Source: a virus. From it: a stretch of 36,683 bases of DNA. Below, piece after piece: positions 3,174 to 34,721 of this stretch (the first letter of the stretch is position 1; every line of letters begins with the position of its first letter). Made by a program: the position numbers and the translations under genes. The stretch covers positions 1 to 36,683 of the IMG/VR virus record IMGVR_UViG_3300023174_000375; one strand, 5' to 3'. Below the pieces are notes generated by a model. That model ran no database searches. It had not been told where the DNA came from and saw nothing but the letters and a program-made list of their open reading frames with translations.

Positions 3174-3177
3174 TGAC

Positions 3178-3204
3178 AAAAAAGCCCGGATTTTTCCGGG
3201 CTTT
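3178..3204 (-). terminator. Intrinsic terminator after gp19
   Basis: A nine-base-pair stem (AAAGCCCGG with CCGGGCTTT) with a six-base loop. On the minus strand it is followed by a run of six T, a classic rho-independent terminator. It lies about 20 bases after the gp19 stop codon. Confidence 0.9.
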
Positions 3205-3223
3205 AGTGTAAACAGGTCGACTA

Positions 3224-7278: not shown

Positions 7279-7629
7279 ATGGAAAATCGTCCCTTATGCG
7301 CGGTTTGTGGCAAGAATTCAGCCGCAGTAAACTATATTAAAGGTGAAAAAAGGTACTATCGCAAACGATGCGACAATTGCATACGCAAGAAAAAAAACTT
7401 ACAAACACCGATACCGCAGTGGGTCAAATCTGGTTATAAAAAGAAACCACACTGCGAAAAGTGTGGTTTCAAAGCCCGATATCGAGAGCAGTTATTTGTA
7501 TTTCACGTGGATGGAAATCTCAACAACTGTGCCTTGCCCAATTTAAAAACCATATGTGCCAACTGCCAGATTGAAGTGGCCAAACAAGGTCTGGGCTGGG
7601 GGCAGGGGGACCTCACCCCTGATCTTTAA
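7279..7629 (+). CDS. Small HNH-like zinc-ribbon protein
   Basis: A 116-residue basic protein with two Cys-rich units. The first is C7-x2-C10 with C31-x2-C34, a zinc ribbon. The second is C59-x2-C62, then H76-V-D-G-N80 and C93-x2-C96, the framework of an HNH/McrA-like nuclease (HxDGN...NL...C..C). The usual final histidine after the last Cys pair is replaced by Gln, so catalysis is not certain. From memory, small proteins of this type are conserved in T4-like cyanophages, which argues against a recent homing endonuclease. It is a lone plus-strand gene between gp18 and the dNMP kinase; its 3' end overlaps the kinase 3' end by 17 bases on the opposite strand. Confidence 0.85.
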   Translation: MENRPLCAVCGKNSAAVNYIKGEKRYYRKRCDNCIRKKKNLQTPIPQWVKSGYKKKPHCEKCGFKARYREQLFVFHVDGNLNNCALPNLKTICANCQIEVAKQGLGWGQGDLTPDL

Positions 7630-8269
7630 TCAATAGTCGTTCAACCTGCTCATACAACTGTTCCAGACTGCCACTGTTATCCAGAACAGCGTCAAATTTG
7701 TGCCCAACCCAGGAATACTCACTGGAATGGATGTATGGATATTTTTGACTCATTAGTTCGTCGTGATCTTGCAAAATCCAATGATGATCTGCATCAGTGG
7801 TATTTTCTTTAAGTGCACACGCATACCACTCTGGCAATGGTCCTCGTTGAATTTGTAGAATCGTACCACCAGCATCACGAATTGCTGCAATCTCATTGGG
7901 AAATCGACAATCAGTAACCACAACATCATCCTGTGCTGATCGCAATCTGTTCTCTAGACTGGCCAACCAAATATCATCATGAAATCCATTGCGGATAACA
8001 TCGGTACCCCAGTGCTGAAGAATGTATCTGGGAGTAATAGTTTTACCTAGTTTGTTGCTCCACCAGGCATCTGGCTGCTCACGCCATTCTCTGCTTTGTT
8101 TGCTGCGACCCTCCAGAAGTTCACGATTCCAACCAAAAATTACACTGACTGCATCTTTAAGGCTACTGGCAAAACTTTCACGACGGAACCCATGAATATT
8201 AACCAAATAATCAGCAACCGTGTCTTTGCCGGCACCGATAAACCCGCAAATTCCAATGATTTGAGGCAT
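7613..8269 (-). CDS. 1: Deoxynucleoside monophosphate kinase (T4 gene 1 family)
   Basis: A 218-residue nucleotide kinase that phosphorylates dNMPs to dNDPs to supply precursors for phage DNA synthesis. The P-loop GFIGAGKDT is at residues 9-17. The block ILQHWGTDVIRNGFHDDIW corresponds to the T4 gp1 segment with LGTDLIVNNF, VVVTDCRFPNE (about 115-125) to its DTRQDHE segment, and DNSGSLEQLYEQVERLL near the C-terminus to NDGSLEEL. Length is close to T4 gp1 (241). The start at 8269 is preceded by a CAGGAG Shine-Dalgarno that is part of a hairpin described separately. It is the only nucleotide-metabolism kinase among the structural genes. Confidence 0.92.
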   Translation of the reverse strand: MPQIIGICGFIGAGKDTVADYLVNIHGFRRESFASSLKDAVSVIFGWNRELLEGRSKQSREWREQPDAWWSNKLGKTITPRYILQHWGTDVIRNGFHDDIWLASLENRLRSAQDDVVVTDCRFPNEIAAIRDAGGTILQIQRGPLPEWYACALKENTTDADHHWILQDHDELMSQKYPYIHSSEYSWVGHKFDAVLDNSGSLEQLYEQVERLLIKDQG

Positions 8270-8326: not shown

Positions 8327-9217
8327 TTAGCCAATTATCCAGGTCATAGGCATACCGCCGTCAACAAAGTTTCTGATATCCTCGTCCAGTTTGTCCAACA
8401 ATGCCTGACCTTCGGCCTTGAGGGCAGAACCATTTAAAGTGGTGCCGCCTTGTGGACCAGCAATGGTGCTAAACTTTTCACGGGCCTGGCCTATGCTCAT
8501 CATGACCAATGCATATGCATAGTCCTGAATCCAGGGAAATGCAGTGTGATCATTCAGCAACATCTGATCTGGTTTGTAATTATCTATGTGTAGCAACACA
8601 CTTTCGCTGACATTTTCCTGGTAATTTTGTCCAAAATTTGGTATTTTTCTTACCAGAGTCAATTTGTGAGTGGTTTTGTTCCAGTGATAATCTATGTAGC
8701 CGCCAAACATACGCATGGCCAATTCTTGATAGCCCACAAACAATTCATAGTTGACTAGGCCGCCCACGCGCCCTGCCACCAGCATGTAGGTATTCAAGTA
8801 ACCGCTGGCAAATGGTTCAAATTGACTGGCCGTGGTCCCAGTAACACTGCCAATACCACGACGGTATATGGCACGGATATTCATGATTTCTCTTGGTAGT
8901 ATGTATTCTTGTGTTTCAGGATAGAGGTCCAAGAATGCATAACTTTCTTCCACGCTGTTGGCGCTGCGCTGTCGGTATCTAATCAGCGCCTGCTTGATAC
9001 CCATGTCAAAATGCTCTTTGTCAGCTTCCACATCCACCATGCCATCGCCCAATCTCAGGCGAATGTAGTCAATGATGTCTCGTTTTTGCTGATCAGTGGC
9101 AGTCAGCGCAGTGGGGTCAAACGCAATATGCCCAGTGCCCGTGCCGGTGTTGGCATTGAACAGTGAGTCGGTGATTATACTTCCACGTGGAGTTAGATTG
9201 CCGGTTGCAGTTACCAT
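8327..9217 (-). CDS. 13: Neck protein gp13
   Basis: A 296-residue protein; T4 gp13 has 309. It forms part of the neck that closes the filled head and receives the tail. Features matching T4 gp13 in order: KRDIIDYIRLRLGDGMVDVE (T4: LKDVILRRLGAPIINVE), a helix GIKQALIRYRQRS, the block LPREIMNIRAIYRRGIGS (T4: NVFAVTRILRTNIGS), a region ending HWNKTTHKLTLVRKIPNF (T4: FWFNSANEQLKVMGNF), and a C-terminal helix WIQDYAYALVMMSIGQARE ending in TWIIG (T4: WVKDYATALAKELNGQILA, ending ILVG). The ATG at 9217 has AGGAT eight bases upstream, inside a hairpin arm. Unlike T4, gp13 lies on the opposite strand from gp14 and gp15. Confidence 0.85.
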   Translation of the reverse strand: MVTATGNLTPRGSIITDSLFNANTGTGTGHIAFDPTALTATDQQKRDIIDYIRLRLGDGMVDVEADKEHFDMGIKQALIRYRQRSANSVEESYAFLDLYPETQEYILPREIMNIRAIYRRGIGSVTGTTASQFEPFASGYLNTYMLVAGRVGGLVNYELFVGYQELAMRMFGGYIDYHWNKTTHKLTLVRKIPNFGQNYQENVSESVLLHIDNYKPDQMLLNDHTAFPWIQDYAYALVMMSIGQAREKFSTIAGPQGGTTLNGSALKAEGQALLDKLDEDIRNFVDGGMPMTWIIG

Positions 9218-9222
9218 TTAAA

Positions 9223-9265
9223 ATTATCCTGTTACTGTATATTTATATTTCAGTAACAGGATAAT
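9223..9265 (-). promoter_or_regulatory. Late promoter inside a perfect 15-bp inverted repeat that contains the gp13 Shine-Dalgarno
   Basis: Arms 9223-9237 and 9251-9265 are perfectly complementary; the 13-base loop holds TATAAATA on the minus strand (9240-9247), an exact T4 late consensus. The promoter-proximal arm of gp13 contains its AGGAT Shine-Dalgarno (9226-9230). RNA reading in from the upstream gene would fold and hide the site, whereas RNA begun at the loop promoter contains only one arm and stays open. Confidence 0.8.
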
Positions 9266-9268
9266 CAA

Positions 9269-10438
9269 CTATGCAACTTTCAGCAGCATCGTATCCTCAT
9301 TGATTCGACCGTTGAGTTTAATTTCAGTAGTCTTGATTGCGTCCATAAACTTACGCAATTCCACTTTACTTGAGCTTAGAAACGCCCTAATTTGCTGATC
9401 CGGCTTACGCAAGGTCTTTTGAATACTATTGAGTTCATCAAATCCCACAATGCTGGTGCCTTTGATGCCCAAGGTTCCCATGTGACTGTCAGCCACATAT
9501 TTGCCCAATTTGCGAGTCTTGACATTATAAACCCAAAGTTCCTTGGAACCAATAATATCCACCGGATTAATTGACGCAATCTTGAGACTGACATCGGTCT
9601 TAAGGTAATTGAGTTTGGCAACCTGCTTTTCCTTGGCCGGAGGCTTACGAACAGCCGCTTTCTTAGTAGCTCGTTTGGTCTGAGTATAGCTGCCCAGATC
9701 AGCAAGGAGTTTGGTGTAAAATGCATCATACCGACGGTAATCAGCAGCCTTCAGGTGCTCATAACCTTCGGCCAGTTGTTCACAATCACCAGCCTTGGCA
9801 GAATTGATTTCAGCGTGTCTGGGTTCAAATACCGCAGCAATTTTCCCCACCATGGCCTGCGGTACTGCTTGCGCCATCAGGTATTCATATGCCTTGGGGT
9901 CCACCGACTCTCCCGCAATGACCCGATCTTCCAGTTCTTCAAAATACAAAATATGCTTTTTAACAATTTCTGCCATACGCTCTTGAATTGTCAAAACTTT
10001 GACCGTTGCGGCGGGTTTGGCGGTTTCCACTACTACATCAATTATCTCTTGCTCAACCGCTTTCTGAACTGCACCAAGAATATACTTTACATGTTGATCA
10101 CGCAAGGGCATGCCACGCTCATGTGCCTTGACTAACCCACACACCGTCATGGGGGTTTTGGATTCCGGAGTACGTGCATATTTGTCGATAATGGACTTTT
10201 CCAGATTATTAGTTGAACGCAGCCAAGCGACCACATACTTCCTCAGATCTTTCGACGAAAAATAATAGTTATAGTAATTAAGGCTGGTTCGAAGATGATG
10301 GTTGAATTCATCATCACCAAATGTCAACGCACGCTCATGGTCCCAAATGGGCTCACCGCCAGTGTACTTTTCATCAAGAAACAAGGGGTCTCGACTGACC
10401 TTGGCCTTCTTCTTAGAACCTTCAATCTTAATTGACAT
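9269..10438 (-). CDS. Conserved phage protein of unknown function
   Basis: A 389-residue soluble protein with no signal peptide or membrane segment. The N-terminal 100 residues contain an aromatic helical block (LRTSLNYYNYYFSSKDLRKY), the middle (about 110-240) is helical, residues 255-275 are a Lys/Ala-rich basic linker, and the C-terminal 115 residues (from LKTDVSLKIASINPVDIIG) look like a beta-rich domain with ELWVYNVKTRKLGKYVA. From memory, similar proteins occur in T4-like cyanophages next to neck genes, but I know no function. The ATG at 10438 has AAAGGAAT upstream. It precedes gp13 and shares its orientation. Confidence 0.8.
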   Translation of the reverse strand: MSIKIEGSKKKAKVSRDPLFLDEKYTGGEPIWDHERALTFGDDEFNHHLRTSLNYYNYYFSSKDLRKYVVAWLRSTNNLEKSIIDKYARTPESKTPMTVCGLVKAHERGMPLRDQHVKYILGAVQKAVEQEIIDVVVETAKPAATVKVLTIQERMAEIVKKHILYFEELEDRVIAGESVDPKAYEYLMAQAVPQAMVGKIAAVFEPRHAEINSAKAGDCEQLAEGYEHLKAADYRRYDAFYTKLLADLGSYTQTKRATKKAAVRKPPAKEKQVAKLNYLKTDVSLKIASINPVDIIGSKELWVYNVKTRKLGKYVADSHMGTLGIKGTSIVGFDELNSIQKTLRKPDQQIRAFLSSSKVELRKFMDAIKTTEIKLNGRINEDTMLLKVA

Positions 10439-10731: not shown

Positions 10732-10760
10732 ATTATAACAACAATTACACGGTTAGTCAA
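10732..10760 (-). promoter_or_regulatory. Host-type sigma-70 promoter (TTGACT-17-TATAAT)
   Basis: On the minus strand TTGACT (10760-10755) is followed after exactly 17 bases by TATAAT (10737-10732), which reads toward the 88-residue gene. It abuts the divergent late promoter of gp14. This is five of six plus six of six consensus positions at the best spacing. Confidence 0.8.
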
Positions 10761-14770: not shown

Positions 14771-17700
14771 TTACACAATATATGTTGCTTGTACCTTGAC
14801 ACTGCTGTTGGTTGAACTTGCACTGGTGTACTTCAATGTCACATTACCAGCAGCAATAGTTGCTGAGAATGTGCCCATTTCTGCACCGCTTGCAACAACA
14901 CCATATGTTGTTACATATGCGTTAGTACCGTTCTGAACCAACAACACTTCAGCCACTTGTACATTTGAACCGTCCTTGACTTGCACAACATACTTAGCAC
15001 TGGTGTATGCTGAAGTTGCAAATGTGTCAATTGTGGTTGCACTTGTACTTGATACTGAAGTTGCTGCCTGATCGTGTACAATCTTACTGGTGTATAGTGC
15101 GTTCCAGCGTTGTGCTGCACTACCCAGGTTGAATGTTGCGTCACTGTTGGGTATCAAGCCACTGTTGATGTCTGCATTGAATACAACACTATCAGCACTG
15201 TCAGTACCAATTTGGATGTTACCAGTTGTGTCGCCCTTGACCCACAAGTTGCCTTCGATAATCACATCCTTGGCAAATGTTGCTGTGCCGTTAGCAGCAA
15301 TTGACAGTCTGTTTGTGCTACTACCAGTTCCAGTCTTGATATAAGCACCGCCCGCGTCTGCACTGAACAAGTTATAACCATAACCAATTTCTTGTACACT
15401 GAATGTTGTTGTTAGACGACGTACATCAATTTCGTCACCATCAGCAGGGGCTTCTGTCAGGGTCAATGTTGAACCTGATACACTATAAGAAACACCAGGA
15501 ATCTGTACCACACCGTTAACTGCAACAATAGTACTTGCAGTTGTTGCAGTGTTGGCCATGGTAAATGCAGTTGTAAAGCCGTCACCCAAGAACAAGTCAC
15601 CAGTGATGACAGTGAACTCGGTTGATGAGCCCAACCAACGTGTGCCATTGAAGAATTCCAATGTGTTAAGTGTTGAGTTATAACGAATCATACCTGTAAC
15701 ATCAGTCTGGCCACTCAATCCTGGACGTTGTGCAGTGGTACCAACTGGAACAATAAATGAATCTGTACTGTTAATAGTCAGTGTTGCACCGCTGATTGGT
15801 GTAGTATCGCTGCCACCAATCTTAACAGTGTTGGTTGCTGCATCTGTGTAAATCAATGTACTTGCAGTTGATCCCTTAACAGTGAATGTACTTGCACCAC
15901 TTTCGCTGTTAATTGTAACATTGCCCTTGACATTTACGTCGCCTGCAATACCTGCACCGCCACTAACAACCAATGCACCCGAGTTGTATGCTGAACTTGC
16001 AGTGCCTGAAGTAACATTTGCTGTTGGTGTGTTGGTACCAATGCCAACATACAAACTGCCAGTAATGCCAGCACCACCAGTGACTCTCAAAGCACCTGAA
16101 CCTGTGTCTGTTGCAATTACTGCTGCGTTTGCGTACAAGACGTTGGCTGCTGTTACTGTGCCACGGAATGTGGTTGCACTTGCTGCATCAGCAAAGTTCA
16201 ATGTTGTCGCAGCACCAAATGCTTCAACTGTAGTTGCCACAGTATTAGCAAATGTGATTGATGTCTGACCAACTGCAACATTAGTTGCATTTGGCAAGTA
16301 CACTGTTGCGTTATTGATTGTTGCTGTACCAGTTGTGGCACCCATGTCCAATGTAGTAGCTGCACCAGCAAAGTTCATTGTTGTTACTGTTGAATCCAAC
16401 AAGTTGAATGTTGTTTGATCAGTAATGATGTCGCCGCCACCAACAAACAAGTCCTTGGCCACTGCAACGCCGCCAGCAACTTGTAGAGCACCAGTTGAAA
16501 CACTTGTGGTGTCATCTGTGTTGTCGACAGTGATCTTACCATTAACATCCAAATCGTTGCGTACGGTTGTTGTACCTGTTGAGGCAGCAATTGTCAATGC
16601 AGTAGCAGCCTTGAATGCATCAACTGTTGTTGCTGTATTCAATACATTAACACTTGCGGCAGTACCAGTGATATCTGTGGCATTTGGTAGTGCTAGTGTT
16701 GTGTTGTTGATGGTTGTGGTACCTGTTGCTGCACCAACATTTAGTGATGTAGCTGCACCAGCAAAGTTCATTGTTGTTGCTGTGGTGTTGTACAGGTTCT
16801 GTGTAGCAGCACTACCAACCAATGTTGGATTACTAATTGTTGCTGTACCAGTTGCGGCACCCAGGTTCAACGCAGTTGCATCACCACCAACGTTCAATGT
16901 TGTTGCTGTCGAGTTCAACAAGTTGAATGTTGTTGCTGTTGTTGTGACATCGCCACCATTAACTGCCAAGTCACCAGTCATTGTTGAATCACCAGTTACT
17001 GACAAGTCAATACCAACATCTAGGCTATTACGTACTGAAGTTGTGCCAGTTGTGGCAGCAAATGTCAATGCAGTAGCAGCCTTGAACGCATCAACTGTTG
17101 TTGCGGCATTCAACACGTTAACACTTGCAGCAGTACCAGTGATATCTGTTGCGTTTGGTAGTGCTAGTGTTGTGTTGTTGATTGTCGCTGTACCTGTGCT
17201 TGCACCAACATTTAGTGCAGTAGCAGCACCAGCAAAGTTCATTGTTGTTGCTGTGGTGTTGTACAGGTTCTGTGTACTTGCTGCACCAACCAATGTTGGG
17301 TTACTGATTGTTGCTGTACCAGTTGAAGCACCCATGTTCAATGCAGTTGCAGCACCAGCAAAGTTCATTGTAGTTGGTGTTACGTTCAACAAGTTAAATG
17401 TTGTTTCATCGGTAATGATGTCGCCACCACCAACAAACAAGTCCTTGGCCACTGCAACGCCACCAGCAACTTGTAGAGCACCAGTTGAAACACTTGTGGT
17501 GTCATCTGTGTTGTCAATTGCAAAAGTGCCCTTGACATCTAGGTTGTTATTGACAGTTGTTGTGCCTGTGTTTGCACCAATGTTAACTGCAATAGCATCA
17601 CCAGCAAAGTTGACTGTGGTTGCTGTTGTGTTCAACAAGTTGGCTGTAGTTGCAGTTGTTGTGACGTCGCCGCCATTGACTGCTAGGTCGCCAGTCACTG

Positions 17701-20700
17701 TTGAGTCACCAGTTACTGACAAGTCACCACCAACATCTAGGTCGTTGCGTACTGAAGTTGTGCCAGTTGTGGCAGCAATTGTCAATGCGGTAGCTGCCTT
17801 GAATGCATCAACGGTAGTTGCTGTATTCAGTACATTAACACTTGCAGCAGTACCAGTGATATCTGTTGCATTGGTTAGTGCCAATGTTGTATTACGGATT
17901 GTTGCTGTACCAGTTGCGGCACCCAGATTCAACGCTGTCGCTCCGCCAGCAAAGTTAACTGTGGTTGCTACGTCGTCAACCAGGTTAAATGTTGTTGCTG
18001 TTGTTGTAACGTCACCGCCATCGACAGCCAAATCGCCTGACAATGTTGCATTAACGGCACTTGCGTCACCTGTTACTGACAAGTCACCACCAACATCTAG
18101 GTCATTGCGTACTGAAGTTGTGCCAGTTGTGGCAGCAATTGTCAATGCGGTAGCTGCCTTGAATGCGTCAACTGTTGTGGCTGTATTCAGTACATTAACA
18201 CTTGCAGCAGTACCAGTGATATCTGTTGCATTGGTTAGTGCCAACGTTGTATTACGGATTGTTGCTGTACCAGTTGCGGCACCCAGGTTCAACGCAGTTG
18301 CATCGCCGCCAACGTTCAATGTTGTTGCTGTTGAGTTCAACAAGTTGAATGTTGTTGCTGTTGTTGTGACGTCACCGCCATCGACAGCCAAATCACCAGT
18401 CATTGTTGAATCACCAGTTACTGACAAGTCAATACCAACATCTAGGCTATTACGTACTGAAGTTGTGCCAGTTGTGGCAGCAAATGTCAATGCAGTAGCA
18501 GCCTTGAACGCATCAATTGTTGTTGCTGTGTTCAACACATTAACACTTGCAGCAGTACCAGTGATATCTGTTGCGTTTGGTAGTGCTAGTGTTGTGTTGT
18601 TGATGGTTGTGGTACCTGTTGCTGCACCAACGTTTAGTGCAGTCGCTGCACCAGCAAAGTTCATTGTTGTTGCTGTGGTGTTGTACAGGTTCTGTGTAGC
18701 AGCACTACCAACCAATGTTGGGTTACTGATTGTTGCTGTACCAGTTGAAGCACCCATGTTCAACGCAGTAGCAGCACCAGCGAAGTTCATTGTGGTTGGT
18801 GTTACGTTCAACAAGTTAAATGTTGTTTCATCAGTAATGATGTCACCGCCGCCAACGAACAAGTCCTTGGCCACTGCGACGCCGCCTGCAACTTGTAGAG
18901 CACCAGTATTTTCACTTGTGGTGTCATCTGTACTATTGATTACGAATCCCTTACCAACGGTTAGGTTTCCTTCAACATTTGTTGTTGCATTGCGCAAGTT
19001 TGCTGTGCCTGTGGTTGCACCTATTACTAGTGCAGTGGCATCGCCCGCGAAGTTAACTGCAGTCGCTGTTGTGTTCAACAAGTTGGCTGTGGTTGATGAT
19101 GTTGTGATGTCACCACCGTTAACCGCTAGGTCACCTGCCAGGGTTCCATTAACGCCTGAAATGTCGCCAGTTACTGCCAAATTACCACCAACATCTAGGT
19201 CGTTGCGTACAGTTGTTGTACCACTTGTGGCAGCAAATGTTAGGTCAGTTGCACCTTCAAATGCTGTAACAGTTGTTGCTGTATTCAACACAGCAATAGT
19301 TGCTGCGCCACCAGTGATTTCTGTTGCGTTTGGTAGTGCCAATGTTGCGTTGTTAACTGTCGCTGTACCCGTTGCTGCACCAACGTTTAGTGATGTAGCT
19401 GCACCAGCAAAATTCATTGTTGTTGCCACGGTGTTGTACAAGTTCTGTGTACTTGCCGAACCAACCAATGTTGGGTTACTGATGGTTGCTGTACCTGTGC
19501 TTGCACCAACATTTAGTGCAGTAGCAGCACCAGCAAAGTTCATTGTTGTTGCTGTGGTGTTGTACAAGTTCTGTGTAGCAGCACTACCAACCAATGTTGG
19601 GTTACTGATTGTTGCTGTACCAGTTGAGGCACCCATGTTCAATGCAGTTGCATCACCGCCAACGTTCAATGTTGTTGCTGTGCTGTTAACCAGGTTAAAT
19701 GTTGTTGCTGTTGTTGTGACGTCGCCGCCATCGACAGCCAAATCGCCTGACAATGTTGCGTTGGTTGCTGATGCATCACCAGTTACTGCTAGGTCACCGC
19801 CCACATCTAGGTCATTACGTACTGTTGTTGTACCAGTTGTAGCAGCAAATGTCAATGCTGTGGCTGCTTTAAATGCATCAACTGTTGTTGCTGCGTTCAA
19901 CACATTAACACTTGCAGCAGTACCAGTGATGTCTGTGGCGTTTGGTAGTGCTAGTGTTGCGTTGTTGATGGTTGCTGTACCAGTTGTAGCACCAACTTCT
20001 AGATCAGTTGCACCCTTGAATGCATCAACGGTTGTGGCATTGTTGAATACACCAATTGTTGCCTGAGCGCCATCAACTGTTGTCGCGTTCTGTACCCAAA
20101 CGTTGGCATTGCGGATTTCTGCTGTGCCACTTGTAGCACCCATAACCAATGAGGTAGCAGCACCAGCGAAGTTCATTGTAGTTGGTGTTACATTCAACAA
20201 GTTGAATGTTGTTTCATCAGTAATGATGTCGCCGCCACCAACGAACAAGTCCTTGGCCACTGCAACACCACCAGCAACTTGTAGAGCACCAGTATTTTCA
20301 CTTGTGGTGTCATCTGTATCAGTAACACGTGTGATCTTGTTCAGATCCCAACTTGTGGTTGCATCATTGTATGTCAATGTTGCATTGGCACCAGCAATTG
20401 TCAAACCTGCGCCATCAGCTTGTGCTGAAGTTGTTGAACCTTGAGCCAATGTCAGGTTAACGTCAGCAATGGTAACTGTGGTTGATTCAACTGTTGTTAC
20501 TGTGCCCTTGACGTCTAGGTTACCAACAACGGTAACGTCTTTGCCAACGTACAAGCTCTTGGCAATACCAACACCACCAGCAACTACCAATGCACCTGTT
20601 GATGTACTTGTTGTTTCGTCTGTACTCTGAACCAATGCTGTGCTGTCTAGTGTAGCAGCACCACTAACGTGGAATGTGCCATTAACTGAAACGTTTGATC

Positions 20701-23700
20701 CAGCGTTGTCGATGTAAACAATGCTTGATGCTGAATTGCCGTAGAATGCTGTGGCATTTGCATCAACTGTTGAAACTAGAACGCCGTCAACGTTTGATGT
20801 GATAACACCTGGAGCAACACCATCGTCAGTGATTTGAATGTCTGTATCGTCTTTGCTGATGTGATCAACTGCACTTTGCAATTGTGCCAATACCCATGAT
20901 TTGTTGGTAGCATCATAGTTGTCAACTGGATCAGCCAGGTCAGTAATTCTAACATTACTTACACTGATGTTACCTGTTGGGGCCAATGTCAGGTTGCCGT
21001 CTGCGCCAACTGTGTTGGTCGCACCATCAACTGTCAATGTACCAATTGTTGCCACTGTGTTGGCTGAATCATATGTGAAATCGCCACTGTCTGACAATTC
21101 ACTGTCGGCACCAGCAAATGTAATACGGCCGTTGGTCAGGTGTGTGTCATAAACAGTTGTGAACTTGGCACTGGCTGGTGTAACATTACCAATCACTGTA
21201 CCTTGAATGTCGCGTGCACTGAATGTGCGATCAACTGCCACATTGCCGTTAACTTGTAACTCATTGCGTACTGTTGTTGTGCCAGTTGTAGCACCTAGGT
21301 TCAATGCAGTTGCGGCACCAGCAAAGTTCATTGTTGTTGCTACAGTATTGTACAAGTTCTGTGTACTTGCTGCGCCAACCACTGTTGGGTTATTGATTGT
21401 TGCTGTACCAGTTGTAGCACCAATGTCTAGTGTAGTAGCACCACCAGCAAAGTTGACTGTGGTCGCTGTATCATCAACCAGGTTAAATGTTGTTGCAGTT
21501 GTTGTGATGTCGCCACCATCGACAGCCAAATCGCCTGACAATGTTGCGTTGGTTGCTGATGCATCACCAGTTACTGCTAGGTCACCGCCTACATCTAGGT
21601 CGTTGCGTACTGAAGTTGTGCCAGTTGTAGCAGCAAATGTCAGATCAGTTGCACCTTCAAATGCGGTAACTGTTGTTGCGTCATTTAGAACGGCAATAGT
21701 GGCTGCACCACCAGTGATTTCTGTGGCGTTTGGCAGGTCTAGTGTTGCGTTCTTAATTGTTGCTGTACCAGTTGTAGCACCAATATCTAGTGCAGTAGCA
21801 GCACCGGCAAAGTTAACTGCGGTTGCATTTGTGTTCAACAAGTTGAATGTTGTTTGATCAGTGATAACGTCACCGCCACCAACAAACAAGTCCTTGGCCA
21901 CTGCAACGCCGCCAGCAACTTGTAGAGCACCAGTTGTCTTGCTTGTGGTGTCATCTGTGTTATCAACTGTAACTCCGCCCTTGACTTCCAAACTGTTGTT
22001 GACAGTTGTTGTGCCTGTGTTTGCACCAATGTTAACTGTTGTAGCAGCACCAGCAAAATTCATTGTTGTTGCTGTGGTGTTATACAGGTTCTGTGTGGCT
22101 GCAGTACCAACAACAGTTGGGTTCTTGATTGTAGCAGTACCGCTAGTAGTACCTAGGTTCAATGCAGTAGCAGCGCCACCAACATTCAATGTAGTAGCAT
22201 TTGAATTCACTAGGTTAAATGTTGATGCAGTTGTTGTGATATCACCGCCGTTGACTGCTAGGTCACCGGTCAATGTTTCACTTCCAGCAACAGTTAGGTT
22301 ACCACCAACATCTAGGGTATTGCGTACTGAGGTTGTACCAGTTGTAGCAGCAAATGTCAGGTCAGTTGCACCTTCAAATGCTGTAACAGTTGTTGCGTCA
22401 TTCAACACAGCAATAGTTGCTGCGCTGCCTGAGATTTCAGATGCGTTTGGCAAGCTAATTGTTTGGTTATTAATTGTTGCTGTACCAGTTGCAGCACCGA
22501 TGTCTAGTGCAGTAGCAGCACCACCAACATTCAATGTCAATACACTTGTGTTCAACAAGTTGAATGTTGACTGATCAGATACGATGTCGCCGCCACCAAC
22601 AAACAGGTCTTTGGTAACTGCAACACCACCAGCAACTTGTAGAGCACCGGTTGATGAACTTGTGGCATTGTTAGTGTTATCAATTGTAGCACTGCCTTTG
22701 ACATCTAGGTTGTTATTAACAGTTGTTGTGCCTGTGTTTGCACCAACATTTAGTGCAGTTGCGGCACCAGCAAAGTTCATTGTTGTTGCTACTGTGTTAT
22801 ACAGATCTTGTGTACTTGAAGCACCAACCAATGTTGGGTTACTGATTGTTGCTGTGCCTGTTGTAGCGCCCAGGTTCAGTGTAGATGCTGCACCACCAAC
22901 GTTCAATGTTGTTGCTGTTGTGTTCAACAAGTTGGCTGTAGTTGCAGTTGTTGTAACATCACCACCGTTGACTGCCAGGTCGCCAGTCATTGTTGTGTCA
23001 CCAGTTACTGACAAGTCACCACCAACATCTAGATCGTTGCGTACTGAAGTTGTGCCAGTTGTGGCGCCCACTGTCAATGAAGTTGCGCCTTCAAATGCTG
23101 TAACAGTTGTTGCGTCATTCAACACAGCAATAGTTGCAGAACCACCAGTGATTTCTGTGGCATTGGGCAGGTCTAGTGTTGTATTACGGATGGCTGTTGT
23201 GCCATTTGTAGCACCAATGTCTAGTGATGTAGCAGCACCTGCAAAGTTAACTGTGGTCGCTGTATCATCAACCAGGTTAAATGTTGTTGCTGTTGTTGTA
23301 ATGTCACCACCGTTGACTGCCAAGTCACCTGATAGTGTTTCATTAGTTGCTGAGATATCGCCAGTTACTGAGAAGTCGCCACCAACATCTAGATCGTTGC
23401 GTACCGAAGTTGTGCCAGTTGTGGCACCCACTGTCAATGCTGTAGCAGCTTTGAATGCGTCAACAGTTGTTGCTGTATTCAACACATTAACACTTGCGGC
23501 ACCACCAGTGATGTCTGTGGCGTTTGGCAATGACAATGTTGTGTTGTTGACTGTTGCTGTACCAGTTGCAGCACCAATGTCTAGTGATGTAGCAGCACCT
23601 GCGAAGTTAACTGTGGTCGCTGTGTTGTCAACCAGGTTAAATGTTGTTGCTGTTGTTGTGACGTCGCCGCCATTGACTGCTAGGTCGCCGGTCACTGTTG

Positions 23701-25387
23701 AGTCACCAGTTACTGACAAGTCACCACCAACATCTAGGTCGTTGCGTACTGAAGTTGTGCCAGTTGTGGCAGCAATTGTCAGGGCAGTTGCACCTTCAAA
23801 TGCTGTGACTGTTGTTGCGTCATTTAGAACGGCAATAGTGGCTGCACCACCAGTGATTTCTGTGGCGTTTGGCAGGTCTAGTGTTGCGTTCTTAATTGTT
23901 GCTGTACCAGTTGTAGCACCTAGGTTCAATGCAGTAGCGTCACCACCAACGTTCAATGTTGTTGCTGTGCTGTTAACCAGGTTAAATGTTGAAGCAGTTG
24001 TTGTGACGTCGCCACCATTAACTGCCAGGTCGCCAGTCATTGTTGAGTCACCAGTTACTGACAAGTCACCACCAACATCTAGGTCATTACGTACAGTTGT
24101 TGTACCAGTTACAGCACCCACGGTCAATGCTGTGGCGCCCTTGAATGCGTCAACGGTTGTGGCTGTATTCAACACATTAACACTTGCAGCGCCACCAGTG
24201 ATGTCTGTGGCATTTGGCAATGACAATGTTGTGTTACGTACTGTTGTGGTACCAGTTGTGGCACCAACTTCCAGTGCAGTAGCACCCTTGAATGCGTTAA
24301 CAGTTGTGGCATTGTTGAACACACCAATGGTTGACATTGCGCCGTCAACAGTTGTGGCGTTCTCAACCCAGACGTTTGCGTTACGGATGCGTGCTGTACC
24401 AGTAGTAGCACCAACTGTTACTGATGTTGCTGCACCACCAACGTTCAATGTGGTTGCTGTGGTGTTTAACAAGTTGAATGTGGTTTGGTCAGTGATGATA
24501 TCGCCGCCACCAACAAACAAGTCCTTGGCCACTGCAACGCCACCAGCAACTTGTAGAGCACCAGTTGATGAACTTGTGGTGTCAACTGTTGAATCAACAG
24601 TTAGTTTGCCCTTGACGTCAACAGTTTCATTGTTAATGGTTGCTGTGCCTGTGGCTGCACCCAGATTCAATGAAGTGGCATCACCACCAATGTTCAGTGT
24701 GGTAGCAACTGTGTTGAACAAGTCTTGTGTGGCTGCTGAACCAACCACAGTGGGGTTGTTGACAGTAAGTGTACCAGTATTTGCGCCCACCGATACTGAT
24801 GTTGCAGCACTGCCCACATTCAATGATGTGACATTGGCAGTCAACAAGTTGAATGTAGCTGCTTCAGAAGTGAAGTTACCACCATTGACTGCTAGGTTGC
24901 CGTTGGATATAATGGCATTGCCTGTCAATAGGTTAGCACTAACATTGCTTGCAGAGAAATTTTGAACCACAGACAAATTGCCAACCTTGGCAGATGAATA
25001 TCCTGAAACTGAAATGGTGCCGTAAGTGGTGCCATCTGATGTAGTCGATCCAAAGACAAATTCTTTGTGGCTTTCGTCCCAGATAATGGCCTGGTTGATG
25101 TCTGAACCGCGATTGAATACGAAACCGATATCGTTACTATTTGTCCCCGAGAAAGCGTTGTTTAGAACGATGATGGGGTCATTAACATATGTGTTGGTTG
25201 ATGCAACTGTTAGGTATGTACCACTACCTTGAACAGTCAGGTTACCAGTGATAGTGATATCACTGGCAATAGTCATTGTTGGCGCAAATAATGAACCAAC
25301 AACAGATCCTGGTACCAACTTGACATTAGCAAGAATGGTGGAGTCAGTGATCTGGTTATTCTTAATACGAGTCAAATAATTAGACAT
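14771..25387 (-). CDS. Giant repetitive tail-fibre protein
   Basis: A 3538-residue protein built almost wholly of short beta-type repeats. Residues 1-165 hold a shared fibre cassette (TYVNDPIIVLNN...NRGSDINQAIIWDESH at about 66-108). From about 165 the repeat core is roughly 42-50 residues, with a variable pair of modules: one like NPTLVG.A.TQNLYNT.ATTMNFAGAATALNVGA.TGTATI and one like TTLALPNATDITG.AASVNVLN.ATTVDAFKAAT. I count about 44 copies of the [AG]xxTGT motif. A non-repetitive island at about 1370-1690 splits the array into two. The C-terminus carries MIRYNSTLNTLEFFNGTRW (near 3240), a DLGS...RW motif and a final ~100-residue domain (to VKVQATYIV). It is probably a trimeric host-binding fibre. 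The repeat is also present at DNA level. Confidence 0.9.
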   Translation of the reverse strand: MSNYLTRIKNNQITDSTILANVKLVPGSVVGSLFAPTMTIASDITITGNLTVQGSGTYLTVASTNTYVNDPIIVLNNAFSGTNSNDIGFVFNRGSDINQAIIWDESHKEFVFGSTTSDGTTYGTISVSGYSSAKVGNLSVVQNFSASNVSANLLTGNAIISNGNLAVNGGNFTSEAATFNLLTANVTSLNVGSAATSVSVGANTGTLTVNNPTVVGSAATQDLFNTVATTLNIGGDATSLNLGAATGTATINNETVDVKGKLTVDSTVDTTSSSTGALQVAGGVAVAKDLFVGGGDIITDQTTFNLLNTTATTLNVGGAATSVTVGATTGTARIRNANVWVENATTVDGAMSTIGVFNNATTVNAFKGATALEVGATTGTTTVRNTTLSLPNATDITGGAASVNVLNTATTVDAFKGATALTVGAVTGTTTVRNDLDVGGDLSVTGDSTMTGDLAVNGGDVTTTASTFNLVNSTATTLNVGGDATALNLGATTGTATIKNATLDLPNATEITGGAATIAVLNDATTVTAFEGATALTIAATTGTTSVRNDLDVGGDLSVTGDSTVTGDLAVNGGDVTTTATTFNLVDNTATTVNFAGAATSLDIGAATGTATVNNTTLSLPNATDITGGAASVNVLNTATTVDAFKAATALTVGATTGTTSVRNDLDVGGDFSVTGDISATNETLSGDLAVNGGDITTTATTFNLVDDTATTVNFAGAATSLDIGATNGTTAIRNTTLDLPNATEITGGSATIAVLNDATTVTAFEGATSLTVGATTGTTSVRNDLDVGGDLSVTGDTTMTGDLAVNGGDVTTTATTANLLNTTATTLNVGGAASTLNLGATTGTATISNPTLVGASSTQDLYNTVATTMNFAGAATALNVGANTGTTTVNNNLDVKGSATIDNTNNATSSSTGALQVAGGVAVTKDLFVGGGDIVSDQSTFNLLNTSVLTLNVGGAATALDIGAATGTATINNQTISLPNASEISGSAATIAVLNDATTVTAFEGATDLTFAATTGTTSVRNTLDVGGNLTVAGSETLTGDLAVNGGDITTTASTFNLVNSNATTLNVGGAATALNLGTTSGTATIKNPTVVGTAATQNLYNTTATTMNFAGAATTVNIGANTGTTTVNNSLEVKGGVTVDNTDDTTSKTTGALQVAGGVAVAKDLFVGGGDVITDQTTFNLLNTNATAVNFAGAATALDIGATTGTATIKNATLDLPNATEITGGAATIAVLNDATTVTAFEGATDLTFAATTGTTSVRNDLDVGGDLAVTGDASATNATLSGDLAVDGGDITTTATTFNLVDDTATTVNFAGGATTLDIGATTGTATINNPTVVGAASTQNLYNTVATTMNFAGAATALNLGATTGTTTVRNELQVNGNVAVDRTFSARDIQGTVIGNVTPASAKFTTVYDTHLTNGRITFAGADSELSDSGDFTYDSANTVATIGTLTVDGATNTVGADGNLTLAPTGNISVSNVRITDLADPVDNYDATNKSWVLAQLQSAVDHISKDDTDIQITDDGVAPGVITSNVDGVLVSTVDANATAFYGNSASSIVYIDNAGSNVSVNGTFHVSGAATLDSTALVQSTDETTSTSTGALVVAGGVGIAKSLYVGKDVTVVGNLDVKGTVTTVESTTVTIADVNLTLAQGSTTSAQADGAGLTIAGANATLTYNDATTSWDLNKITRVTDTDDTTSENTGALQVAGGVAVAKDLFVGGGDIITDETTFNLLNVTPTTMNFAGAATSLVMGATSGTAEIRNANVWVQNATTVDGAQATIGVFNNATTVDAFKGATDLEVGATTGTATINNATLALPNATDITGTAASVNVLNAATTVDAFKAATALTFAATTGTTTVRNDLDVGGDLAVTGDASATNATLSGDLAVDGGDVTTTATTFNLVNSTATTLNVGGDATALNMGASTGTATISNPTLVGSAATQNLYNTTATTMNFAGAATALNVGASTGTATISNPTLVGSASTQNLYNTVATTMNFAGAATSLNVGAATGTATVNNATLALPNATEITGGAATIAVLNTATTVTAFEGATDLTFAATSGTTTVRNDLDVGGNLAVTGDISGVNGTLAGDLAVNGGDITTSSTTANLLNTTATAVNFAGDATALVIGATTGTANLRNATTNVEGNLTVGKGFVINSTDDTTSENTGALQVAGGVAVAKDLFVGGGDIITDETTFNLLNVTPTTMNFAGAATALNMGASTGTATISNPTLVGSAATQNLYNTTATTMNFAGAATALNVGAATGTTTINNTTLALPNATDITGTAASVNVLNTATTIDAFKAATALTFAATTGTTSVRNSLDVGIDLSVTGDSTMTGDLAVDGGDVTTTATTFNLLNSTATTLNVGGDATALNLGAATGTATIRNTTLALTNATDITGTAASVNVLNTATTVDAFKAATALTIAATTGTTSVRNDLDVGGDLSVTGDASAVNATLSGDLAVDGGDVTTTATTFNLVDDVATTVNFAGGATALNLGAATGTATIRNTTLALTNATDITGTAASVNVLNTATTVDAFKAATALTIAATTGTTSVRNDLDVGGDLSVTGDSTVTGDLAVNGGDVTTTATTANLLNTTATTVNFAGDAIAVNIGANTGTTTVNNNLDVKGTFAIDNTDDTTSVSTGALQVAGGVAVAKDLFVGGGDIITDETTFNLLNVTPTTMNFAGAATALNMGASTGTATISNPTLVGAASTQNLYNTTATTMNFAGAATALNVGASTGTATINNTTLALPNATDITGTAASVNVLNAATTVDAFKAATALTFAATTGTTSVRNSLDVGIDLSVTGDSTMTGDLAVNGGDVTTTATTFNLLNSTATTLNVGGDATALNLGAATGTATISNPTLVGSAATQNLYNTTATTMNFAGAATSLNVGAATGTTTINNTTLALPNATDITGTAASVNVLNTATTVDAFKAATALTIAASTGTTTVRNDLDVNGKITVDNTDDTTSVSTGALQVAGGVAVAKDLFVGGGDIITDQTTFNLLDSTVTTMNFAGAATTLDMGATTGTATINNATVYLPNATNVAVGQTSITFANTVATTVEAFGAATTLNFADAASATTFRGTVTAANVLYANAAVIATDTGSGALRVTGGAGITGSLYVGIGTNTPTANVTSGTASSAYNSGALVVSGGAGIAGDVNVKGNVTINSESGASTFTVKGSTASTLIYTDAATNTVKIGGSDTTPISGATLTINSTDSFIVPVGTTAQRPGLSGQTDVTGMIRYNSTLNTLEFFNGTRWLGSSTEFTVITGDLFLGDGFTTAFTMANTATTASTIVAVNGVVQIPGVSYSVSGSTLTLTEAPADGDEIDVRRLTTTFSVQEIGYGYNLFSADAGGAYIKTGTGSSTNRLSIAANGTATFAKDVIIEGNLWVKGDTTGNIQIGTDSADSVVFNADINSGLIPNSDATFNLGSAAQRWNALYTSKIVHDQAATSVSSTSATTIDTFATSAYTSAKYVVQVKDGSNVQVAEVLLVQNGTNAYVTTYGVVASGAEMGTFSATIAAGNVTLKYTSASSTNSSVKVQATYIV
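16433..24580 (-). repeat. DNA-level near-identical repeats within the giant fibre gene
   Basis: Stretches such as the block around 17721-17960 recur nearly unchanged at 18081-18320, exactly 360 bases (120 codons) apart. A ~70-base stretch coding for the TGALQVAGGVAV-KDLFVGGGD motif recurs at about 16433, 17420, 18840, 20224, 21870, 22585 and 24500. Such identity points to recent duplication or gene conversion, not only selection on protein. Confidence 0.75.
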
Positions 25388-34690: not shown

Positions 34691-34721
34691 AAAAAATAGC
34701 GGCTGTTAGCCGCTATTTTTT
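34691..34721 (-). terminator. Strong intrinsic terminator
   Basis: A perfect 14-base-pair stem (AAAAAATAGCGGCT with AGCCGCTATTTTTT) and a three-base loop, ending in a run of six T on either strand. It lies 15 bases after the stop of the 136-residue gene and separates it from the next late promoter. Confidence 0.92.

Follow-up and report, generated by a model that had tools for sequence, protein, structure and literature searches.

Hairpin control of late translation has been described for gene e of phage T4, in which the late promoter lies between or overlaps the two arms of a hairpin covering the ribosome-binding site in read-through RNA, and the late RNA lacks the 5′ part (passages of PMC3014915). 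The same passages, with those of a second review (PMC2988022), place T4 soc, 49, I-TevI, I-TevII and segB and Aeh1 mobE among late genes carried on early or middle polycistronic RNA, with a hidden ribosome site that is freed by a late promoter, and give a late gene behind early or middle genes as the setting for this kind of control. For the jumbo phage CBB, an ATAAATA late motif, a gp55-like sigma factor and the presence of the neck protein CBB_201 in virions have been reported, and the words “stem-loop” and “hairpin” are absent from the text of that paper (PMC5259590). The gp13 hairpin of phages of the CBB/GAP32 type was found in the present analysis.

The locus described here lies in a stretch of viral DNA of 36,683 nucleotides, analyzed whole and referred to as the window. 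It differs from T4 e, a lysis gene with an 11-bp stem and a promoter core partly in an arm, in that the gene is a neck gene, the stem is 15–16 bp long and the core is wholly in the loop; soc, 49, I-TevI, I-TevII, segB and mobE differ as well in what they encode, for the most part a homing endonuclease, nuclease or decoration protein as opposed to a neck protein. The mechanism is already known from T4, and what appears to be new is its application to a neck gene in jumbo phages. A literature search that covered titles and abstract openings, with subscription papers mostly outside its scope, gave no report of this switch for gp13.

The perfect 15-bp inverted repeat occupies positions 9223–9265 on the minus strand, with 13 nt between its arms (Table 1). 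Read from the stop codon of the 389-aa gene (9269) to the ATG of the 296-aa gene (9217), the order is ATTATCCTGTTACTG - AAATATAAATATA - CAGTAACAGGATAAT. An earlier note, made from the sequence, had claimed perfect arms, an exact TATAAATA in the loop, an AGGAT in the downstream arm and a gp13 neck protein gene. Complementarity of the arms was complete and both motifs were located where the note had put them, which confirms repeat, loop promoter and Shine-Dalgarno in the arm as a real observation; the gene assignment is borne out by the phrog_211 match and by the PDB match of the family profile to the T4 gp13 neck protein (9mkb, E 9.5e-11). The neighbors of gp13, a dNMP kinase, a tail sheath and a gp15-type protein, are consistent with a T4-like virion cluster. 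In the gap between gp13 and the kinase gene a sigma70-like site is frequent among the 45 of 73 distinct gaps listed, the window's own scoring 9/12.

Table 1. Features of the gp13 locus in the window, from the upstream promoter to the gene downstream of gp13.
Feature	Position	Strand	Basis or remark
Sigma70-type promoter TTGACT-17-TATAAT	10732..10760	-	Sequence only; 11/12, extended -10 TG
First gene of operon, 88 aa	10459..10725	-	ORF; relatives precede phrog_11903 at many loci, in some with intervening genes
Upstream co-directional gene, 389 aa, phrog_11903	9269..10438	-	E 1.4e-72
Upstream (5′) hairpin arm	9251..9265	-	Wholly upstream of core; missing from predicted late RNA
Hairpin loop, 13 nt	9238..9250	-	
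T4-type late promoter core TATAAATA	9240..9247	-	Sequence; entirely inside loop
Downstream (3′) hairpin arm, Shine-Dalgarno inside	9223..9237	-	Perfect complement of 9251-9265
Shine-Dalgarno AGGAT	9226..9230	-	Sequence; AGGA-to-ATG gap of 9 nt; in arm adjoining gp13 ATG
gp13 start codon ATG	9215-9217	-	
gp13-type neck protein gene (head-tail adaptor Ad2), 296 aa	8327..9217	-	phrog_211, E 3.1e-31; family profile vs T4 gp13
dNMP kinase gene, downstream of gp13	7613..8269	-	phrog_139, E 5.7e-52

The motif TATAAATA is by itself not unusual, with 2 copies in the window against 1.29 expected. The stem around it scored 36, compared with a mean of 15.0 and a maximum of 31 when the flanks were shuffled and the core kept fixed; none of 3000 shuffles reached 36, and RNA folding of the leader gave z values of −5.19 (76 nt) and −5.43 (141 nt). 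Among the 9 ATAAATA sites of the window the gp13 site has the best promoter-spanning stem, the next scoring 22, and it also ranks first of 22, 30, 24 and 21 such sites in four long relatives. A dispersed repeat was considered and rejected, the other ATAAATA sites in the window having no comparable stem. The same kind of scan on T4 placed gene e first of 32 TATAAATA sites. It found e and I-TevII at their promoter cores, and soc scored 16 at its core and reached 22 only at a second TAAATA. For T4 49, I-TevI and segB it returned no core-spanning stem above chance-like scores, which points either to a different geometry or to a blind spot of the scan.

In the phage collection, a protein search gave matches where a DNA search gave none for the window or for one relative (L146). 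The IMG/VR scans covered 80 of 166 and 80 of 581 relatives among the matches listed, with some contigs common to both; leaders of 79 relatives came from the first scan (L053 being without a start), and L187 was left out of stem scoring. Among the matches listed there were 72 distinct gp13 leaders with an NTAAATA core, the window included, and a gapless scan of these gave a promoter-spanning stem with a score of at least 20 in 61—a threshold that 5.6% of shuffled versions of the window's leader also reach and that, at about 6%, is not strict by itself. Scores of at least 24 were found in 55, of at least 28 in 48, and 31 lay above the top of 3000 shuffles. The core of the 61 stem-bearing leaders is ATAAATA in 52, CTAAATA in 5 and GTAAATA in 4, and the Shine-Dalgarno is inside the 3′ arm in 60. 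The earlier note had singled out the enclosure of the promoter wholly within the loop: this is true of the window and, for the 7-nt core, of 54 of the 61 leaders, but it is a difference of degree from T4 e and from cultured jumbo phages, in which the 5′ arm extends up to or into the core.

The compensatory changes that the note had looked to were found in the alignment of the 61 leaders, where 13 of 16 pairs have changed on both sides. Most leaders without a strict ATAAATA have CTAAATA or GTAAATA inside rewritten stems; whole arms have been rewritten and remain complementary, as GTCGTCC/GGACGAT with CTAAATA (L132 group) and as GGTGTCC/GGACACC with GTAAATA (L170, L174, L178, L184). Paired cells amount to 88.9%, compared with 33–48% when partners were slid, and none of five measures was reached by 500 shuffles; the percentage is inflated because the aligned rows were picked by stem score. 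The two-sided changes are the better evidence, as a tally of related sequences, not of events. A consensus fold of the mixed alignment retained 9 pairs only, probably because of misaligned rows, namely four in another register (L170, L174, L178, L184) and L040; these five were kept in the pair-change tally and, with L172, excluded from a 55-row tally (6 of 61).

The pair types bear on whether the repeat acts as RNA or as DNA. All 61 rows hold 751 Watson-Crick, 96 G-U, 32 A-C and 74 other cells (953 in total), and the 55 aligned rows hold 723, 85, 15 and 47. G-U pairs suit an RNA of the gp13 strand, A-C pairs being the mirror expected if the other strand folded, yet this is only a hint of strand because the excess rests largely on related rows; counted once per position and type, 11 G-U against 9 A-C are nearly even. 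The better argument for RNA is where the Shine-Dalgarno lies, inside the 3′ arm. A perfect dyad around a promoter might instead be a DNA operator, with a dimeric repressor or another protein on the arms covering the late promoter, much as T4 I-TevI represses its own late promoter via an operator (passages of PMC2988022). The arms, however, vary widely yet stay complementary, G-U pairs break DNA symmetry (96 of 953 cells), and no shared half-site is seen because arm sequences differ between cultured groups, all of which makes an operator very improbable.

Folding both RNA forms, which the earlier note had put forward, gave predicted ensembles with the Shine-Dalgarno buried in the read-through form and open in the late form. 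For the window, the probability that it is unpaired is predicted as 0.0003 in the read-through form, compared with 0.68 in the assumed late RNA, which was modeled as starting 7 nt after the core; we take the gp13 late start, from T4 spacing, to lie near 9233. Over the 61 stem-bearing leaders the median predicted openness is 0.000 in read-through and 0.523 in late RNA, compared with 0.51 and 0.54 in the 11 other leaders.

Judging from promoter motifs and gene content upstream of the hairpin, gp13 appears to be a late gene placed last in an early-type operon. A sigma70-type promoter matching at least 10/12 positions was present in 61 of 62 distinct 120-nt upstream segments (this one included) against 6.2% of shuffles, and one matching 11 or 12 of 12 in 57 of 62 against 0.4%; a TAAATA late core on the operon strand was found in 0 of the 62. 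In phiM12, DLP_6 and ACP17 the phrog_11903 homologues have nrdB, glutaredoxin or RNase H genes nearby, which by T4 practice is an early or middle setting; the Cr30 homologue is found among sugar genes, and the one in PA5oct adjoins gp13. A PDB sequence search with phrog_11903 gave no useful match. With this promoter upstream and gp13 trailing an early-type operon, a block such as the hairpin would be needed. On the minus strand of the window, no terminator-like site (loops 3–8) was seen from 10725 to gp13. Elsewhere in the window, two other late promoter cores each have a terminator-like inverted repeat immediately ahead of them (3176–3209 and 34691–34721), perhaps as an alternative shield of late genes from read-through.

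The repeat could itself be an intrinsic terminator for the early operon, closing it ahead of gp13, with the late promoter merely overlapping it. The hairpin comes right after the phrog_11903 stop and is followed by TTTTAA in the window, and some cultured leaders, XaC1 foremost, have a T run after the stem. A conserved U run after the stem, as expected of an intrinsic terminator, was not found across the 61 leaders, although the window itself has TTTT: a TTTT lies between Shine-Dalgarno and ATG in just 8 of them, and 23 have no TTT there. The stem is moreover A+T-rich with a loop of 13 nt, and it covers the Shine-Dalgarno in 60 of 61, so that we consider a terminator very unlikely.

We regard it as highly probable, from the arrangement and its conservation, that the hairpin is a switch of the e/soc/I-TevI type that times neck-protein translation. 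Host sigma70 polymerase would start at 10760–10732 and transcribe the 88-aa gene and phrog_11903, and in the absence of an intrinsic terminator seen between them it would run on into gp13. The read-through RNA would hold both arms and fold into a 15–16-bp hairpin that hides the gp13 Shine-Dalgarno, keeping the gene silent early. Late in infection, polymerase with a gp55-like sigma would start from TATAAATA in the loop, and the late RNA, beginning in or beside the downstream arm (about 9233) and without the upstream arm, would be translated. The e/soc-type reading of the earlier note is supported at the level of sequence by conservation, two-sided changes, the Shine-Dalgarno in the arm, the upstream sigma70-type promoter and a gp55-like sigma in some relatives. 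As to the last, a T4 gp55 query matched in the records of 5 of 8 long relatives (E <= 0.1; best 6e-7), and one relative's gp55-like ORF, examined further, matched phrog_12791 “sigma factor for late transcription” (E 3.4e-84); there was no gp55 match in the 36,683 bases of the window's own record, which is a fragment.

Long stems can be RNase III substrates, and a hairpin a few bases past the upstream stop codon might be an RNase processing site or might protect the 3′ end of the upstream message, with the promoter there by chance. Such a role does not need the Shine-Dalgarno and the late core, yet both have been kept in the structure across groups, and we give it hardly any weight.

From 61 cultured records with a gp13 match, 18 leaders hand-picked as representatives were scored, with the 5′ arm allowed to overlap the core, unlike in the IMG/VR scan. 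In thirteen, a stem spans or overlaps the TAAATA core and has the Shine-Dalgarno within its 3′ arm, with scores reached by 0–21 of 400 shuffles each: Munch, fENko-Kae01, XaC1, XbC2, Hallingskeid, Kaldavass, GAP32, CBB, SNUABM_19, RaK2, K64-1, 121Q and SD-2_S15. These form groups of related phages and are not independent cases (121Q and SD-2_S15 have the same leader), and arm sequences vary between groups, as in CACCCCTAT, CCTCTAAA, ACCCCTAAA and TAGCACCTC. By orientation, the stem is present in 13 of 14 leaders with a co-directional upstream gene, a count that includes PA5oct as one of eleven Pseudomonas records that match alike, versus 0 of 4 with a divergent one. No better-than-chance stem (82–363 of 400 shuffles) was found in PA5oct, Atu_ph07, Vibrio 2.275.O, Phosso and SCTP-2; the upstream gene is co-directional in PA5oct and on the other strand in the remaining four, and in Phosso and SCTP-2 weak, chance-level stems still touch the Shine-Dalgarno. 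A PA5oct transcriptome paper was not found among the literature matches listed.

In three of the cultured phages the annotated gp13 start lies inside the hairpin (121Q, L207:1438; RaK2, L206:1441; Kaldavass, L200:1438), and these were scored from a later in-frame ATG. This later ATG, beyond the Shine-Dalgarno in the arm, is the more likely true start to judge by its position, and gp13 of Sharanji is annotated from the one that corresponds to 121Q; the hairpin also suggests that start codons are probably misplaced in some annotated genomes. The 80-nt gp13 leader of Sharanji, with E. coli K12 MG1655 as listed host, is identical to that of 121Q. In Xanthomonas phage XacN1 (L212:1-2268) and Stenotrophomonas phage RAS14 (L213:1-2262) the gp13-like part makes up the C-terminal end of a far longer ORF, which looks like a fusion and leaves it without a leader.

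Relatives that keep gp13 and the promoter but have lost the complementary arm, which the earlier note had named as counter-evidence, do occur: 11 of the 72 distinct leaders among the matches listed score below 20, or 9 once L169 and L171 are set apart, whose stems over the Shine-Dalgarno are shorter or broken and are missed by a gapless scan when interrupted. The nine without a better-than-chance promoter-spanning stem are L050, L070, L071, L133, L166, L177, L185, L186 and L188. Those that speak against the switch are L070, L071 and L133, which keep phrog_11903 upstream without the stem—L070 and L133 also having a good sigma70-type promoter, a poor fit to the switch—and PA5oct, which keeps the gene order without the stem. 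In L040 the stem is short and the Shine-Dalgarno lies outside it. L188 (1763-4978) is rearranged, its kinase (58.7% identical to that of the window) being divergent from gp13 and phrog_11903 lying downstream on the other strand, with the promoter kept and a spanning hairpin absent. A divergent upstream gene without a spanning stem fits the switch idea, but as a natural test it is not clean because the Shine-Dalgarno still pairs in the folded upstream form (0.02). A gp13 tree of 71 rows and 4 outgroups has 7–8 changes of hairpin label, compared with a shuffled mean of 13.2 and 0 of 500 shuffles as low. Together with the exceptions this indicates that the switch is common and clustered but dispensable; the hairpin is not obligatory, gene and promoter having been kept in some lineages in which the stem is absent.

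That many related giant phages have the arrangement suggests a cost of producing neck protein too early, and early gp13 may be harmful to the phage. A wider reading, to which we give an even chance, is that the gp13 switch is old and has been repeatedly rewritten in T4-related jumbo phages, so that most lineages with the neck gene behind co-directional early-type genes would enclose the late promoter in a stem that hides the Shine-Dalgarno, whatever the arm sequence. If so, early neck protein would be harmful, for example to head-tail assembly, and the hairpin would replace a terminator at the junction. The T4 switch has been described for lysozyme, Soc and homing endonucleases; the comparative evidence extends it to an assembly protein, both in uncultivated phages and in cultured jumbo phages such as 121Q, RaK2, CBB, GAP32 and Munch. 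The switch offers a testable reason how a structural gene can sit behind early-type genes, and makes the harm of early neck protein directly testable, for example in Sharanji.

Further observations were made at these loci. A short way upstream of the gp13 hairpin, 48 of 196 loci have a single copy of a conserved 13-mer, CCTCAAGGTAGCG (e.g. L004:2933-2945), several of these loci being the same contig fetched twice; the 13-mer is absent from the window's own gap. In L046 an inserted 411-aa gene (1675-2910), for which PHROGs gave nothing better than E 0.22, separates phrog_11903 from gp13, and the hairpin remains adjoining gp13. Within the window, an ORF of 116 aa with weak similarity to an HNH endonuclease (phrog_10822, E 0.0024) lies on the opposite strand between the sheath and kinase genes (7279–7629, +), and open frames of 1213 and 793 aa (16425–20066 and 22584–24965, +) run antisense inside a 3538-aa minus-strand ORF (14771–25387). 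In one relative (G002:110607-111300, equal to L100:10607-11300) a homing endonuclease gene (phrog_655, E 1.3e-53) is located between nrdA and nrdB, with a late promoter inside a 16-bp stem that holds the Shine-Dalgarno, the next-best site after gp13 in that genome. It is mobE-like: Aeh1 mobE is a known member of the hairpin-controlled class of late genes (passages of PMC2988022), and T4 mobE also lies between nrdA and nrdB.
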